The position numbers and the translations under genes were made by a program. From Jannaschia helgolandensis (lineage in GTDB: Bacteria > Pseudomonadota > Alphaproteobacteria > Rhodobacterales > Rhodobacteraceae): a stretch of DNA of 64,000 nucleotides. The stretch lies in assembly GCF_900109285.1 (NCBI RefSeq), contig NZ_FNZQ01000001.1, forward strand, positions 773,001 to 837,000. Reading direction: 5' to 3'. The stretch's first letter is position 1; each line of letters begins with the position of its first letter. Below the pieces are notes generated by a model that saw nothing but the letters and a program-made list of their open reading frames with translations, was not told the origin of the DNA and did not search any database. This document shows, piece after piece, positions 55,862 through 63,785 of this stretch.

Positions 55862-56487
55862 TGGAAACTCAGGTTCAGATTGACCAACTGGAAGAACTGG
55901 CCACGCATATCGAGTTGCGGCAGGCCGATCTGGTATCGTCGCATTCGATCACGCTGGGCGAGCTGACGCTGGAAGCGACCGCATCGGACATTCCCGCGCT
56001 GGTGGAGTTCCTCAAGTCCGACGAACAGTGCCGTTTCGCGTCTTTGGTCGACATCACGGCGATCGACTATCCGGGTAACGAACGACGATTCTGCGTCGTT
56101 TATCACTTCCTGTCGATGTATCTGAACCACCGCATCCGCGTGAAGGTTCGCGTCCGCGAAGAAGAGATCGTGCCATCCATCACCGGCATCCATCCCTCGG
56201 CCAACTGGTTCGAGCGGGAGGTCTTCGACATGTTCGGCATCCTTTTCTCGGATCATCCGGACCTGCGGCGCATTCTGACGGATTACGGATTTCGCGGCTA
56301 TCCGCTGCGCAAGGACTTCCCGACCACGGGCTATACCGAGGTGCGGTATGACGAAGTGCAGAAGCGTGTCGTCTATGAGCCGGTGTCGCTGACGCAGGAA
56401 TATCGGCAGTTCGACTTCATGTCGCCCTGGGAGGGTGCGGAATACGTGCTGCCCGGTGACGAAAAGAAGACAGGGGAGGCGAAGTGA
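55861..56487 (+). CDS. nuoC: NADH-quinone oxidoreductase subunit C
   Basis: Structural peripheral-arm subunit (30-kDa homologue), 208 residues. The diagnostic segment is [50 protein letters not shown] near 102-150. It is coupled to nuoB. It is a separate protein from NuoD, unlike the fused NuoCD of E. coli. The stop overlaps the next small gene (TGATG), so a non-core protein is translated from the same coupled message. Confidence 0.96.
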
Positions 56488-56876
56488 TGGACGCTTCCGT
56501 CCCGTCTCTGGACGTTGTGCGCGAGCTTGCCGTCGCCTATTGTAACGGCATTCACCATTCGCGGACCGAAATTTTCGAGACCATGTGTCACGACCGCTTT
56601 ATCATGACCGCAGTCACTGGGTCAGGCGGCGCACAGTTCTGGGACAAGGCGGCTTACCTGGAGCGTGTCAGCGGACGGGAGCCGTTTCCGGGTGAGCCTT
56701 CCTATGAGATCCTCGGCGTGGATGTGGCAGGGGACGAAACGGCGCGCGTCCATCTGTGGGTCGATGTGCCGCCACGGCGGTTCGAGGATCATCTGGGCTT
56801 CATCCGCGCAGATGGGCAATGGAAACTTATCACCAAGGTGTTCCGGACCATGCGCGGTCCGGCACTCGAAGGTTGA
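56487..56876 (+). CDS. NTF2-like (lumazine-binding-type) accessory protein in the nuo operon
   Basis: Small cytoplasmic protein of 129 residues with the cone-shaped NTF2-like fold. It has an N-terminal helix (VVRELAVAYCNGIHHSRTEIFETMCHDRFIMTAV), a loop, and C-terminal strands VHLWVDVPPRRFEDHLGFIRADGQWKLITKVFRT, the last resembling the putative lumazine-binding (Lumazine_bd_2) group. ATG 56487 shares a base with the nuoC stop, and GGGGAGG at 56473-56479 serves as its ribosome site; GTG 56484 is an alternative. Not a complex I core subunit; role unknown. Ligand binding or assembly help is possible. Confidence 0.75.
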   Translation: MDASVPSLDVVRELAVAYCNGIHHSRTEIFETMCHDRFIMTAVTGSGGAQFWDKAAYLERVSGREPFPGEPSYEILGVDVAGDETARVHLWVDVPPRRFEDHLGFIRADGQWKLITKVFRTMRGPALEG

Positions 56877-56888
56877 GGAGACGACGCG

Positions 56889-57086
56889 ATGACGTATGGA
56901 ATGGGGTTTTCGGGTCTTCTGGTGATGCTCGTCATGGCTGTGCTGCTGGTCGTGCCATTCTGGAAGCTCCTGCCCAAATTCGGATATTCGTCATGGATTT
57001 CGCTTGTCGCAATTATCCCGCTCGGAGCCTTGGTTCTGATCTGGATTCTTGCGTTCAGTGAACCGAAACCGAGGAATGCAGCATGA
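56889..57086 (+). CDS. Small two-helix membrane protein in the nuo operon
   Basis: A 65-residue protein with two hydrophobic segments (about 7-27 and 36-56) separated by [13 protein letters not shown] and ending in SEPKPRNAA. It has a good ribosome site (AGGAG, 56877-56881) before ATG 56889, and its stop overlaps nuoD as ATGA. I do not recognise a named family. Tight coupling to nuoD suggests it is made in proportion to the hydrophilic arm; it may be a supernumerary subunit or assembly factor, which is inference. Confidence 0.75.
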
Positions 57087-58318
57087 TGGACGGCGATCTG
57101 ACCAATCCGCGCGGGTATCAAGACGCTCTGACCGGCGAGCAGAAGATCCGCAATTTCAACATCAACTTCGGGCCACAGCATCCGGCGGCGCACGGCGTGC
57201 TGCGGCTGGTGCTGGAGTTGGACGGAGAAATTGTGGACCGCTGCGATCCGCATATCGGCCTGCTGCACCGTGGCACCGAAAAGCTGATGGAAAGCCGGAC
57301 GTATCTGCAGAACCTGCCCTATATGGACCGGCTGGATTACGTGGCACCGATGAACCAGGAACATGCCTGGTGTATGGCGATCGAGCGACTGACCGGCACG
57401 CCGGTGCCGCGCCGCGCGTCCCTGATCCGGGTGTTGTTCAGCGAGATCGGACGTATCCTGTCGCACCTGTTGAACGTGACGACACAGGCGCTTGATGTTG
57501 GCGCGCTGACGCCACCGCTCTGGGGGTTCGAGGAGCGCGAGAAGCTGATGGTGTTCTATGAACGCGCATCCGGTGCACGTCTGCACGCCGCGTATTTCCG
57601 GCCCGGTGGCGTGCATCAGGATCTGACGCCCGACCTGATCGACGATATCGAGGCGTGGTGCGAAACCTTCCCGAACGCGCTGGCCGATATTGACGAGTTG
57701 CTGACAGAGAACCGCATCTTCAAGCAGCGCAACGTCGATATCGCCATCGTCTCCGAGCAGGAGGTCATGGACTGGGGCTTTTCGGGCGTCATGGCGCGCG
57801 GGTCGGGTCTGGCGTGGGATTTGCGGCGGGCGCAGCCTTATGAATGTTATGATGAATTCGATTTCCTGATTCCGACGGGCAACAACGGTGACTGCTATGA
57901 CCGTTTTCTCGTTCGGATCGAGGAGATGCGGCAGTCGATCCGCATCATGAAGCAGGCCATCGCCAAGCTGCGGGAGCCTGAGGGTCAGGGCGACGTGCTG
58001 GCGCGCGGCAAGATGACGCCGCCGTTGCGCGCCGATATGAAAACGTCGATGGAAAGCCTGATCCATCACTTCAAGCTGTATACCGAAGGGTTCCACGTGC
58101 CTGCCGGAGAGGTCTATGCCGCCGTCGAGGCCCCCAAGGGCGAGTTCGGCGTCTATATGGTGTCGGACGGATCGAACAAGCCGTACCGCGCCAAGCTGCG
58201 TGCGCCGGGGTTCCTGCATCTGCAGGCGATGGACCACATCGCACGCGGGCATCAACTGGCCGATGTGGCCGCGATTATCGGGACGCTGGATGTGGTGTTC
58301 GGGGAGATCGATCGGTGA
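57083..58318 (+). CDS. nuoD: NADH-quinone oxidoreductase subunit D
   Basis: Core subunit forming most of the quinone-binding chamber (49-kDa homologue), 411 residues. [28 protein letters not shown] near 24-50, [33 protein letters not shown] near 55-88, and the C-terminal [33 protein letters not shown] near 350-385 are intact. ATG 57083 overlaps the preceding small gene; a second ATG follows immediately. The next small gene overlaps its stop as GTGA. Confidence 0.97.
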
Positions 58319-58698: not shown

Positions 58699-59979
58699 AT
58701 GCTCCGCCGCCTCCACAAAGACCAGCCCGAGACCTTCGCCTTCACGCCCGCCAATCAGGCCTGGGCCGAGGCGCAGATGACGAAATACCCCGAAGGGCGG
58801 CAAGCTTCCGCGATCATCCCGCTTTTGTGGCGTGCGCAGGAGCAGGAGGGGTGGCTGACGCGGCCTGCCATCGAGCACATCTCCGAGATGCTGGGCCTTG
58901 CCTATATCCGAGGGCTGGAGGTGGCGACGTTCTATTTCATGTTCCAGCTTCAACCCGTCGGCAAGACAGCGCATATCCAGATTTGTGGCACCACGTCCTG
59001 CATGATCTGCGGGGCCGAGGACCTGATCGCTGTCTGCCGCGAGAAGATCGCCATGCGACCGCATGACATCAGCGAAGACGGTCAGTTGTCGTGGGAAGAG
59101 GTCGAGTGTCTGGGGGCCTGTTCCAACGCGCCGATGGCCCAGATCGGCAAGGATTATTATGAAGATCTGACGGTCGAGCGGTTCAGCGAAATGCTGGACG
59201 AGTTCCGTGCGGGCCAAGTGCCGGTGCCAGGTCCGCAGAACGGGCGCTTTGCGTCCGAACCTATGGGCGGCGCGACAACGCTGACCGATGCAGCAGGCAA
59301 CAAAGACCACGATCAGAACGCCAGCGTCGCCCTGGCGACCGAACTGGGCGACACGATCAAGCGGATCGACGGCACGGAAGTGCCTCTGCGCGCGCCGTGG
59401 CGGAAAGCCGAACAGGCCGATCCCAATGCTGAGGTTGCCGCGCGCGACCCGATGTTGCCGCCCAGCGGGCCGGATGGAAAACAGGCCGGACGTGTTCGCG
59501 GACAGTCCGATGCGAACCGCAGGCGGGGCGATGCAAGCGACGGCGTGGCCGAAGTGCGCGGATCGGATGCCCAGACCAAGGGCAGGCCCGATAGCGGCGA
59601 AGTTGCACCAGCGACAAAATCGGGTGCAGGGGCCGATTTCCGCGCAGAACCCGAAGTAGTGCTGGAACCGGATGCATCCGAATCGCCTGAAACGCCTTCC
59701 GATGTGGCCAGGCCAGCGGGTCTGAGCGCCCCGCGCGACGGTAAGGCCGACGACCTGCAGTCCATCAGGGGAATCGGGCCGAAGTTGGAAAAAATATGTA
59801 ATTCCATGGGGTTCTGGCATTTTGACCAGATTGCATCCTGGTCTGCGGACGAAATCGCCTGGGTCGATTCGCACCTTGAAGGGTTCAAGGGGCGCGTGAC
59901 GCGTGACGAATGGGTCAAACAGGCTAAGGTGTTGACGGAAGGCGGGCAGAAGACGGAGTTTCCGACCCGCACGAACTAG
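58699..59979 (+). CDS. nuoE: NADH-quinone oxidoreductase subunit E with long C-terminal extension
   Basis: A 24-kDa-type electron-input subunit with the N1a 2Fe-2S cluster. It has 426 residues, while the family core is about 160-240. The core occupies about 1-190: [35 protein letters not shown] near 75-110 and [19 protein letters not shown] near 135-155 give the four cluster cysteines. Then comes an acidic, low-complexity linker (about 195-350) rich in Asp, Ala, Gly and Pro. The end is a helix-hairpin-helix domain at about 351-412, [20 protein letters not shown] then [13 protein letters not shown] 58699 follows GAAGGAACCGAA. The tail is absent from E. coli NuoE. Confidence 0.93.
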
Positions 59980-60026
59980 GGGGCCGATCCAGGATCTGAT
60001 CCCCCGCCAGTCTGGGGAGATATATC

Positions 60027-60818
60027 ATGGACGACACCGGAACTACTGTTCACCGCAATCGGATGCCTATCGCTGCCGGCAGCGGCGTGATTTTTTTTCT
60101 GCTGTTCTGGCTTGCCATGGGCTGGGGGTTCTTCTGGGCTCTGATCGGCGGGGTCGTCATATTCGCGATCCTGCTGGTCGTTCTGGGAATGATCGGTGAC
60201 GACAGCGCAAGCGCGACGGGAACCTCCGGAACTGCGATGCAGGGTGATCCGCCCGCATCCGCCTCCGAGACCGCGCGGCCCGCCGGTCATGTCGGCGCGG
60301 ATGCTGGCGGCAGCACGGTTCCCCCCTCGGTTGCCGGGGGAGGCGCCGCCGCCGGGGGCGGCGCCGCTGGCGGCACATCGCCCGCCGCAACCGGAACGTC
60401 GATCGGCGAAGGTGCCGACGCAGCTTCGGCCAGAACCGACGCGGACGCCGCAGCCGCATCAGCCACACACGACAGCGCGCCCGTGAAAACGTCGGCCGCC
60501 GCTCCGACCAGCGCGGTGCCATCCGGCGGTGTCATCGGCACCAAGCCCGAAACCCTGGATGCCCCGCGCGGGACCGGTGCGGACGATCTGAAGAAAATCA
60601 AGGGTGTGGGGCCGAAGCTGGAGGCGATGTGCAACCGTATGGGCTTTTGGCACTATGACCAGATCGCAGGGTGGTCCGAACGCGAGGTGGCTTGGGTCGA
60701 TGATAATCTGGAAGGTTTCAAGGGCCGGGTGCAGCGCGACGATTGGGTCAGTCAGGCCAAGACCCTGGCATCGGGAGGCGAGACGGCGTTTTCCCGCAAG
60801 GCCAGCAAGGAGCGCTGA
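60027..60818 (+). CDS. Membrane-anchored protein with the same helix-hairpin-helix domain as NuoE
   Basis: A 263-residue protein. Two close hydrophobic segments near 15-55 (SGVIFFLLFWLAMGWGFFWAL, then VVIFAILLVVLGMI) anchor it. An alanine/glycine-rich linker of about 130 residues follows, and the C-terminal domain at about 186-247, DDLKKIKGVGPKLEAMCNRM then FWHYDQIAGW, matches the NuoE tail at 44 of 62 positions with no gaps. The start at 60027 is ATG after GGGGAGA. It lies directly after nuoE. It is probably a duplicate of the NuoE tail or its source. The domain type is also seen fused to other Rhodobacteraceae proteins; function unknown. Confidence 0.85.
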   Translation: MDDTGTTVHRNRMPIAAGSGVIFFLLFWLAMGWGFFWALIGGVVIFAILLVVLGMIGDDSASATGTSGTAMQGDPPASASETARPAGHVGADAGGSTVPPSVAGGGAAAGGGAAGGTSPAATGTSIGEGADAASARTDADAAAASATHDSAPVKTSAAAPTSAVPSGGVIGTKPETLDAPRGTGADDLKKIKGVGPKLEAMCNRMGFWHYDQIAGWSEREVAWVDDNLEGFKGRVQRDDWVSQAKTLASGGETAFSRKASKER

Positions 60819-60893: not shown

Positions 60894-61121
60894 ATGACCG
60901 GACCTTCTGACCTAGACACGGCGATCGCCAAACGCTCCGGCAGGGTGGCCATCCTGATCCTTGCCGTGTTCGCGGGTTGGGGTCTGCTGCAATTCCTGGG
61001 CGTGCAGTTGGAGCTGTCGCGCCGTGTCATGGGTCTGGGGGATGCGGTTGCGCTGGTCGGGATGGGCTGGGCGATCTATGAGACGGCTATGATCTGGCGG
61101 ATGCGCCGCGAGAAGGAGTGA
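60894..61121 (+). CDS. Small two-helix membrane protein of the nuo operon (DUF5337-like)
   Basis: A 75-residue protein with two hydrophobic helices (about 17-36 and 46-62), basic ends and a C-terminal WRMRREKE. It resembles the DUF5337 proteins found in Rhodobacteraceae nuo loci; that name is from memory and should be checked. ATG 60894 is chosen although the frame is open to TTG 60855; no strong ribosome site is visible. It is five bases before nuoF. Confidence 0.7.
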
Positions 61122-61125
61122 CGAC

Positions 61126-62421
61126 ATGCTGCAAGACCGGGACCGGATCTTCACCAATATCTATGGCATGGCCGACCGCAGCCTGAAGGGCGCGCAGTCG
61201 CGGGGGCAGTGGGACGGCACCAGGGACCTGATCGGACTTGGCCGCGACAAGATCGTCGAAATCATGAAATCTTCCGGTCTGCGCGGTCGTGGCGGCGCTG
61301 GCTTCCCGACCGGTCTGAAATGGTCGTTCATGCCCAAGGAAAGCGACGGGCGTCCTTCCTATCTGGTGATCAATGCCGACGAATCCGAGCCGGGCACCTG
61401 CAAGGACCGGGAGATCATGCGCCATGATCCCCACACCCTGATCGAAGGCGCGCTGATCGCGTCTTTCGCGATGAACGCGCACGCCTGCTACATCTATATC
61501 CGCGGCGAGTATATCCGCGAGAAAGAGGCGCTGCAAAACGCCATCGACGAGGCCTATGAAGCCGGTCTGCTGGGAAAGGATGCCGCGAAATCCGGCTGGG
61601 ACTTCGATCTGTATCTGCACCACGGCGCGGGGGCCTATATCTGCGGCGAGGAAACCGCGCTTCTGGAAAGCCTCGAGGGCAAGAAGGGGATGCCGCGCAT
61701 GAAGCCGCCGTTCCCGGCGGGTGCGGGTCTGTATGGCTGTCCGACGACGGTGAACAACGTCGAGTCGATTGCCGTTGTGCCGACGATCCTGCGACGTGGC
61801 GCGGAATGGTTCGCGGGCTTCGGGCGGGCGAACAATGCTGGCACCAAGCTGTTCGCGATATCGGGTCATGTAAATCGGCCCTGCGTTGTCGAAGAGGCCA
61901 TGTCGATTTCCTTCGAAGAGCTTATCGAGACCCATTGCGGCGGTATCCGCGGCGGCTGGGACAATCTGAAGGCCGTGATACCCGGCGGGTCGTCGGTGCC
62001 GATGATCCCCGGTCGCGACATGCGCGAAGCGATCATGGATTTCGACTATCTGAAAGAACAGAAATCCGGCCTGGGCACGGCGGCGGTAATCGTGATGGAT
62101 AACTCCACCGACGTTATCAAGGCGATCTGGCGGCTGTCTGCATTCTACAAGCACGAAAGCTGCGGCCAGTGCACGCCCTGTCGCGAAGGCACGGGCTGGA
62201 TGATGCGGGTCATGGACCGGCTGGTGAAGGGTGACGCGGACGTCGAAGAGATCGACATGCTGCTGGATGTCACCAAGCAGGTCGAAGGGCATACGATCTG
62301 TGCTCTGGGCGATGCGGCGGCCTGGCCGATCCAGGGTCTGATCCGCCATTTCCGCGACGAAATCGAGGATCGCATCAAACACAAGCGGACGGGTCGCGTG
62401 TCGGCGGTGGCTGCCGAATGA
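61126..62421 (+). CDS. nuoF: NADH-quinone oxidoreductase subunit F
   Basis: The NADH-oxidising subunit with FMN and cluster N3; 431 residues. The NADH/FMN site shows [21 protein letters not shown] near 48-68, [21 protein letters not shown] near 82-102, and [36 protein letters not shown] near 163-200. The 4Fe-4S ligands are in [16 protein letters not shown] near 344-360 and the later [13 protein letters not shown] near 390. ATG 61126 is used. The stop overlaps a 28-codon micro-ORF as ATGA. Confidence 0.97.
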
Positions 62422-62504
62422 CTGATGCGATTGCTCATAGCCCATACGCGCTGGCTGTTTCAGATGGCTGGGCAATGCTGGCTGTCGGACCCTGCGCGCT
62501 GTGA
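62418..62504 (+). CDS. 28-residue micro-ORF coupled at both ends (candidate small protein)
   Basis: It starts at ATG 62418, overlapping the nuoF stop by ATGA. It runs 28 codons, and its TGA (62502-62504) shares a base with the ATG of the next gene. The peptide begins [18 protein letters not shown] and ends AVGPCAL, with two tryptophan/cysteine-type residues but no signal peptide or clear membrane helix. Exact filling of an 82-base gap with stop/start overlaps on both sides is the same pattern used by the real genes of this operon. It might be a true small protein or only a coupling device. Confidence 0.55.
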
Positions 62505-62893
62505 TGCGTCTGGTGATCCTCGTCCTGGCAGCGACGCCCGCAATGGCACAGGACACCGTTCCTGCACCGGAATATTTCGTCACCTCCGCCATGGCGACGT
62601 CCACGGCGCAGATCGTGGCGGTGAATTGCGGCACGCTTTCGGTGAACCCGGCCGCGATGACGCAAAGCACCGATGCCACGCTCGCCGCATTGGCCGAGGA
62701 CGGGTTCACGCCCGAGAATCTGACCACGCGGATGCAGGACCCCGGCGACCGGATTGCCGTGTTGCAACAGGCGTTCATGGAAAAGCACGGTCTGACCGAT
62801 GGCGCGACCGAAACGACGGTCTGCGCGGCGGGACGCCGGGAAATCACTGAGGGGACCGAGATCGGCGCCCTGCTTCTGGAGGTCGAAAGATGA
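62504..62893 (+). CDS. Small secreted protein of the nuo operon (DUF5333-like)
   Basis: A 129-residue protein with a signal peptide ([16 protein letters not shown]). The mature part shows SAMATSTAQIVAVNCGTLSVNP, DGFTPENLTTRMQDPGDRIAVLQQAFMEKHGL and the end CAAGRREITEGTEIGALLLE. The cysteine pair and the C-AGR--I-x-GT-IG-LL end recur in the protein at 63387-63785, so the two appear to be paralogues. Both resemble Rhodobacteraceae DUF5333 proteins (from memory). ATG 62504 is used; a GTG one codon earlier is possible. The next gene overlaps by ATGA. Confidence 0.75.
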   Translation: MRLVILVLAATPAMAQDTVPAPEYFVTSAMATSTAQIVAVNCGTLSVNPAAMTQSTDATLAALAEDGFTPENLTTRMQDPGDRIAVLQQAFMEKHGLTDGATETTVCAAGRREITEGTEIGALLLEVER

Positions 62894-63273: not shown

Positions 63274-63346
63274 TCCTTCGGGCCCCTGATCCGGCATGCC
63301 ATCGCCTGACAGACCCGCAGATATTGAATAGCCGACGATAGATGCC

Positions 63347-63369
63347 AAGGTTCACCACCAGCGAACCTT
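63347..63369. other. Inverted repeat upstream of the last accessory gene
   Basis: AAGGTTC (63347-63353) and GAACCTT (63363-63369) pair around a nine-base loop, 17 bases before the ATG at 63387. It could be an operator, an mRNA hairpin or chance. Confidence 0.4.
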
Positions 63370-63386
63370 ATCGAAAGTCGAGCCAT

Positions 63387-63785
63387 ATGACCCTGCGCCC
63401 CCTTTGCCTGACGCTTGCCGCCCTGCTGACGTCCGCCCCCGCCTTTGCCGATCTGAAGGACGAACGGCGGATCAGCGAGGGGCTGATTACGGTGGGTATC
63501 GCCTATGAAATTTCGGAAGTGTGCCCCGATATCAGCGCGCGCAAGATACGCGGCCTGCGATATCTGCTGGCGTTGAAATCGGCGGCCAGCGGCCTTGGAT
63601 ATTCTTCCGACGAAATTGACGCCTACATCGATGATGACGTCGAAAAGGACCGGCTGGAAGTTATCGCGCGCCAGCGTCTGGCCGCATTGGGAGCGCGCAA
63701 GGGCGACGTGGCGGCGCATTGTGCCGTCGGACGTGCGCAGGTCGCGCAGGATACGCAGGTCGGGCGGCTTCTGAACCCGCGCTGA
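63387..63785 (+). CDS. Small secreted protein of the nuo operon (DUF5333-like)
   Basis: A 132-residue protein with signal peptide MTLRPLCLTLAALLTSAPAFA. The mature part is helical: LKDERRISEGLITVGIAYEISEVCPDISARKIRGLRYLLALK, then GYSSDEIDAYIDDDVEKDRLEVIARQRLAALGARKGDVAAHC and AVGRAQVAQDTQVGRLLN. The pattern of two cysteines and the C-xxGR---x-x-T-xG-LL end matches the protein at 62504-62893, so they are probable paralogues. It fits the DUF5333 type as I remember it. ATG 63387 lies right before the signal peptide. nuoG follows after 99 bases. Confidence 0.78.
   Translation: MTLRPLCLTLAALLTSAPAFADLKDERRISEGLITVGIAYEISEVCPDISARKIRGLRYLLALKSAASGLGYSSDEIDAYIDDDVEKDRLEVIARQRLAALGARKGDVAAHCAVGRAQVAQDTQVGRLLNPR

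Follow-up and report, generated by a model that had tools for sequence, protein, structure and literature searches.

In a 64,000-nucleotide stretch of the Jannaschia helgolandensis genome (contig NZ_FNZQ01000001.1, positions 773,001 to 837,000; hereafter the window), which contains the nuo operon, the complex I subunit NuoE and the membrane protein encoded next to it end in homologous tails of the helix-hairpin-helix (HhH) type, each carried on a flexible linker. This tail is a mobile C-terminal module that occurs on varied hosts. It may serve as a flexible tether to the nucleoid, or to nucleic acid, on complex I (through NuoE) and on the membrane, a reading that we hold at a probability of about 0.47 and that is favoured because a relative of the tail, in the phasin PhaH, is reported to bind DNA and because the hairpins of the tail are basic. 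The neighbour is called protein-O-like here, after a photosystem subunit of Dinoroseobacter shibae whose gene has the same position. The relevant features, all on the forward strand, are the following.

58699..59979 (+): nuoE, long form, 426 residues ([2Fe-2S] core, linker and tail; NCBIfam NF009040, Pfam PF01257)
59290..59709 (+): low-complexity linker of NuoE, about residues 198-337, between core and tail (from the sequence)
59710..59943 (+): NuoE tail domain, HhH type, residues 338-415 (from tail comparisons and the PhaH profile alignment)
60014..60019 (+): GGGGAG, likely ribosome-binding site of the protein-O-like gene (read from the sequence)
60027..60818 (+): protein-O-like gene, 263 residues (same place between nuoE and nuoF as D. 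shibae protein-O)
60045..60203 (+): two-helix membrane hairpin of the protein-O-like protein, residues 7-59
60204..60542 (+): its linker, rich in Ala, Gly, Ser, Thr and Pro, residues 60-172
60543..60776 (+): its tail domain, residues 173-250 (block means of the predicted local distance difference test, pLDDT, 84-97)
60777..60815 (+): its C-terminal extension (relatives resemble GGETEFSKRVxKGDVY in the alignment)
60894..61121 (+): DUF5337 gene, between the protein-O-like gene and nuoF (Pfam PF17272, 49.6 bits)
61126..62421 (+): nuoF (open reading frame), marking the end of the examined interval

The original prediction described NuoE as a protein of 426 residues with a low-complexity linker and a C-terminal HhH-type domain, and its neighbour as two membrane helices followed by a flexible linker and a matching tail, and both architectures were confirmed. 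Specifically, NuoE is a full member of NF009040 (PRK12373; 561.4 bits against a cut-off of 514, over residues 1-421) and its core corresponds to PF01257 at residues 24-169, while residues 61-170 of the protein-O-like linker have pLDDT block means of 48-54 and align poorly among relatives; the two genes are separated by 47 bases. The tails are indeed homologous, as residues 351-412 of NuoE and 186-247 of the neighbour align without gaps and are identical at 44 of 62 positions, compared with 13-14 for five shuffled copies. Many relatives of both proteins also finish in a similar C-terminal extension.

A lead towards function is given by the phasin PhaH of Caulobacter, since the C-terminal part of its family model (PhasinPhaH, NF045508, 234 positions) aligns with both tails: positions 135-232 with NuoE 315-413 (E 4.5e-16) and positions 119-232 with residues 135-248 of the neighbour (E 2.7e-17). 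The window proteins are not themselves PhaH, because their scores of 63.7 and 59.7 bits lie far under the cut-off of 250; they have no phasin Pfam match either. According to a review, the N-terminal part of PhaH binds polyhydroxybutyrate (PHB) granules, its C-terminal HhH domain binds DNA nonspecifically, and the protein positions PHB granules along the nucleoid.

Our tail alignment comprises 269 rows (268 distinct), in which the glycines of the first hairpin, at positions 21 and 23, are each present in 268 rows, and Arg62 and Arg65 in 251 each. (HhH)2 domains that bind DNA typically touch it with both of their hairpins. The charge of the whole domain, which is neutral or slightly acidic despite the basic hairpins, is uninformative; when split by hairpin, which was done afterwards and is therefore a post hoc test, mean net charges are +1.6 and +2.7 for the 95 NuoE tails, of which 90 have two positive hairpins, and +1.7 and +2.8 for the 83 protein-O-like tails, of which 76 do. 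With Pfam HHH_5 (PF14520, gathering cut-off 27), NuoE stays below the threshold at 14.9 bits, the neighbour gives no match and one tail-bearing phasin passes with 28.9 bits. The predicted fold is nearest to the HhH domains of NusA (AR2) and the RadA/RAD51 N terminus, with 22-25% identity in the four best rows, although such likeness of fold shows no function. In Foldseek neither of the two models had a match at E <= 0.001; the weak top matches included a trypanosome mitoribosomal protein (PDB 6yxx, 6yxy and 7aoi, chain BS).

The same fold supports the main rival to tethering to nucleic acid, namely that the tail is a protein-docking domain through which one common protein partner (for instance, a component of the transcription or assembly machinery) brings ribosomes, complex I, granules and membrane anchors together. 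NusA AR2 was solved with SuhB, the overall charge of the tail is near-neutral to acidic, and the hosts are components of large assemblies. On the other hand, almost every tail retains the GxGP hairpin, most tails of NuoE and protein-O-like proteins have two basic hairpins, and PhaH, the relative for which an activity is reported, binds DNA according to the review. We consider docking unlikely, yet it is the alternative to be taken most seriously.

The range of hosts is wide. Three copies of the tail are found in the J. helgolandensis genome, on NuoE, on the protein-O-like protein and on ribosomal protein bL21, and at least one in at least 137 genomes of a 150-genus sample of the family. Within the family, 43 of the 50 bL21 proteins that were read carry it, a set that is not random (30 are the best matches to the bL21 of J. 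helgolandensis, and 20 were picked from genomes in which the other two tails occur). A class-wide search with profile A2 gave tail matches in 29 of 289 genomes; in the 40 loci read, which cover 42 of the 56 matches listed, the hosts include NuoE, bL21, uS2, bL27, bS1, a phasin and many proteins that begin with one or two hydrophobic helices as judged by eye. The identities of the phasin (PF05597), L27, S2 and S1 hosts were confirmed by NCBIfam and Pfam. Among 199 genomes sampled across the phylum, 53 match, of which 50 (J. helgolandensis included) belong to the class and three, all of one family, lie outside it. The tail is nearly confined to one class within the sampled phylum, and the named relatives suggest that this class is the Alphaproteobacteria.

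Some of these hosts are known as families with a C-terminal extension, such as bL21 and uS2 (NF008915, NF008916 and NF008966), where the same tail stands on a linker and the host is ribosomal; bL21 tails are about 49% identical to those of NuoE and protein-O-like proteins. Two bL21 matches have one TAA within the matched frame (G014:C7:132528-132845 and G092:C1:929929-930246). Open frames with two or three tails in tandem were also seen (G485:C17:92431-93390, G579:C49:70114-71235, and loci L137 and L139), as was a second kind of tail protein (L171, L204, L238, L240-L243 and L246) with a single hydrophobic stretch at the N terminus, which starts like MFREWGFLL, and a charged segment ahead of the tail, in loci where neither NuoE nor NuoF was found.

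The ribosomal hosts (43 of the 50 bL21 proteins, and uS2, bL27 and bS1 elsewhere) could be taken to mean that the tail binds ribosomal or messenger RNA and couples translation to complex I and the membrane, with co-translational insertion. However, the activity reported for PhaH in the review is for DNA, and bL21 tails are among the least basic, the reverse of what is expected of an RNA role on ribosomes: both hairpins are positive in only 10 of 43 bL21 tails and in none of three uS2 tails. RNA as the target is therefore quite improbable in our view.

The original prediction also proposed that NuoE and its neighbour may form a pair that links the NADH-dehydrogenase module of complex I to the membrane. 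The loci between nuoE and nuoF were surveyed in the family sample. A nuoE gene was identified in 147 of its 150 genomes, J. helgolandensis included. From the 146 others 120 loci were fetched, with 26 genomes left out by hand (fragmented assemblies, list order); one of these (L077) ended at a contig edge and was removed, so that together with the window the survey covers 120 loci, 119 of them from other genomes. Both the NuoE tail and a tail gene in the interval are present in 72 loci, the NuoE tail only in 22, the interval gene only in 10 and neither in 16. The tail is accordingly no sporadic fusion in these operons, as NuoE has it in 94 of 120 loci and an intergenic tail gene exists in 82. 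By hydropathy the interval tail proteins were divided into 83 protein-O-like (in 82 loci) and 7 phasin-like ones, with two tail genes in the interval of 8 loci; the phasin-like label is tentative, as the second interval proteins of L199, L212 and L227 have no phasin Pfam match.

Copy number bears on the same question. In the class-wide search, profile A2 left many genomes with a single match, and a broader profile was then run on 22 chosen genomes, although very divergent copies may escape these counts as well. In eight of them (G020, G023, G029, G112, G249, G336, G386 and G426) there was a single match at E <= 0.01; of the remaining 14, G067 and G070 have a clear second copy and the others only matches of E 1e-5 or weaker. 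Pairing of two tails is thus not needed, which suits a partner other than a second tail.

A comparison of the tails across genomes helps to explain why the two copies are so alike. NuoE tails have a mean identity of 64% among 72 genomes, and the cross-genome values are nearly equal for NuoE with NuoE (0.642), protein-O-like with protein-O-like (0.650) and NuoE with protein-O-like (0.638). Within a genome, however, the NuoE and protein-O-like tails are more alike than when permuted (0.678 vs 0.639; 0 of 5000 permutations, n=72). This excess persists in the 34 genomes in which a bL21 tail was read (0.688 vs 0.656) and when five hand-picked genomes of high synonymous identity are left out (0.671 vs 0.639, n=67). 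No such within-genome excess was found for bL21 tails, whether against NuoE (p 0.54, n=37) or protein-O-like tails (p 0.33, n=35), and so neither shared composition nor a common partner that drifts explains the likeness. Synonymous codons of cross-genome pairs of NuoE and the neighbour are near chance (identity 0.493 observed, 0.471 expected) while the amino acids are conserved, which indicates purifying selection on the tail domain.

A clear case is locus L073, where 99% of synonymous codons are the same in both tails. Of 270 bases there that span the last part of the linker and the tail, 267 are identical, and identity is lost on either side. Occasional gene conversion between the adjacent copies is the simplest reading of these sequence patterns, although the window pair shows no recent conversion (synonymous identity 0.50, expected 0.47). 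An ancient duplication followed by separate histories, in its simple form, is unsupported, given the near-equal identities across genomes and the higher ones within them.

Direct binding between the NuoE and protein-O-like tails, joining the NADH-dehydrogenase module to the membrane (or, in phototrophs, complex I to the reaction centre-light-harvesting 1 complex, RC-LH1), would be a still less probable explanation. The adjacency of the genes, their co-occurrence in the loci above (Fisher p 6e-4, phylogeny uncorrected), the greater likeness of tails from the same genome and the presence of neighbour relatives in RC-LH1 structures would all agree with it. Yet in 32 of the 120 loci only one of the two is present, gene conversion accounts for the likeness, and eight of the 22 re-searched genomes have one match only. 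An exclusive complex I pair is further at odds with the occurrence of the tail on ribosomal proteins, a phasin and unrelated membrane anchors, and with neighbour relatives in the RC-LH1 of Dinoroseobacter and, going by the title of PDB 9wqv, Rhodovulum. One-sided loci lower the case for exclusive pairing, and contact where both tails exist remains compatible with them. The other option in the original prediction, a partner shared by both tails, whether nucleic acid or protein, is the one that the evidence favours.

Protein-O has been described as a new RC-LH1 subunit of D. shibae whose gene lies between nuoE and nuoF (PMC12079452). That paper likens its tail to NuoE tails and to proteins that carry the annotations "ATP synthase subunit E" and "endonuclease", and describes what these domains do as obscure; the tail pair of NuoE and its neighbour had therefore already been published. 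The window protein matches protein-O (PDB 8yy9 chain O) at E 8e-38, mainly through the tail and with little contribution from the membrane part, and the two share the position between nuoE and nuoF, the two-helix hairpin, the long linker and the tail (E 2.6e-39 with profile A2). They differ in that protein-O has a cysteine pair (Cys10-Cys59) whereas the window protein has no cysteine in residues 1-60; by a rough position rule this pair is variable (30 of 42 non-phototroph and 21 of 40 phototroph protein-O-like proteins). A short linker motif like LAGRKGxWxY is conserved in relatives of protein-O (e.g. L173, where it is doubled, L177, L183 and L223), and a similar stretch is visible in D. shibae protein-O. 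Another relative is chain a of PDB 9wqv, an entry titled as LH1-RC from Rhodovulum sulfidophilum; it comes from a photosystem and the chain is named 'NADH:ubiquinone oxidoreductase 41 kd complex i subunit'. No paper for this entry was found in literature searches.

Protein-O thus belongs to a photosystem, whereas the J. helgolandensis genome (99.56% complete) has no match to the reaction-centre family PF00124. Such a match was found in 56 of the 150 family genomes, and a protein-O-like gene occupies the nuoE-nuoF interval in 40 of 52 phototroph and 42 of 68 non-phototroph loci. A link of this gene to phototrophy was not significant (Fisher p 0.11). Our inference is that protein-O belongs to the nuo operon across the family and was recruited into RC-LH1 in at least some phototrophs. 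That the neighbour is instead an assembly subunit of membrane complexes which acts through its hairpin, the tail being incidental, is the least credible alternative: the hairpin does match 8yy9 chain O, and the authors of PMC12079452, taking protein-U as the analogue, speculate that protein-O may help to assemble RC-LH1, but (i) conservation is much stronger in the tail than in the hairpin, as all invariant columns of a 36-protein alignment fall in the tail, (ii) the gene exists in J. helgolandensis and in 41 of 67 other loci without a reaction-centre match and (iii) 12 of 52 phototroph loci have no protein-O-like gene in the interval.

Elsewhere in the window, a Lumazine_bd_2 (PF12893) protein is encoded at 56484-56873, immediately upstream of an open reading frame (57083-58318) which, from its position and the usual gene order, we take to be nuoD. 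Downstream of nuoF, two differing DUF5333 (PF17267) proteins lie close together (62501-62890 and 63342-63782).

The long NuoE family, protein-O with its tail similarity and the DNA-binding domain of PhaH are already known. In the open-access literature, no link of PhaH to the tails of NuoE, protein-O and ribosomal proteins was found, nor was any paper that combines the NuoE tail or the bL21 tail with HhH; protein-O outside phototrophs and gene conversion of the tails were not met either, neither having been searched by name. The link between protein-O and PhaH, along with protein-O-like genes being common without photosynthesis, allows a single hypothesis for these tails.

In the tethering reading, a mobile module of (HhH)2 type, carried on a long and flexible linker, would bind DNA, or nucleic acid generally, via its two basic hairpins. 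The homology of the tails, their architecture and distribution, their exchange as a cassette and their basic hairpins come from the present analysis; for NuoE and protein-O-like tails, both the DNA binding and the tethering role are inferred. The NuoE tail would be placed at the cytoplasmic, NADH-oxidising end of complex I, and the protein-O-like tail anchored to the membrane by the two-helix hairpin. Complex I and the membrane would then have a loose attachment to the chromosome or be distributed along it, in the way that PhaH arranges PHB granules in Caulobacter, and the two tails would share a partner, mutual contact being unnecessary. A wider form, which we regard as doubtful, would make one movable DNA-binding tail a general alphaproteobacterial leash that attaches ribosomes (via bL21, uS2, bL27 or bS1), complex I, granules (via phasins), the photosystem and the inner membrane to the nucleoid.

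If the NuoE tail binds DNA, a respiratory enzyme would be tethered to the chromosome, and if the general form is true, the cell interior would be ordered around the chromosome. An orphan photosystem subunit, a hitherto unexplained extension of complex I and the extensions of ribosomal proteins are in this way brought under one testable hypothesis.
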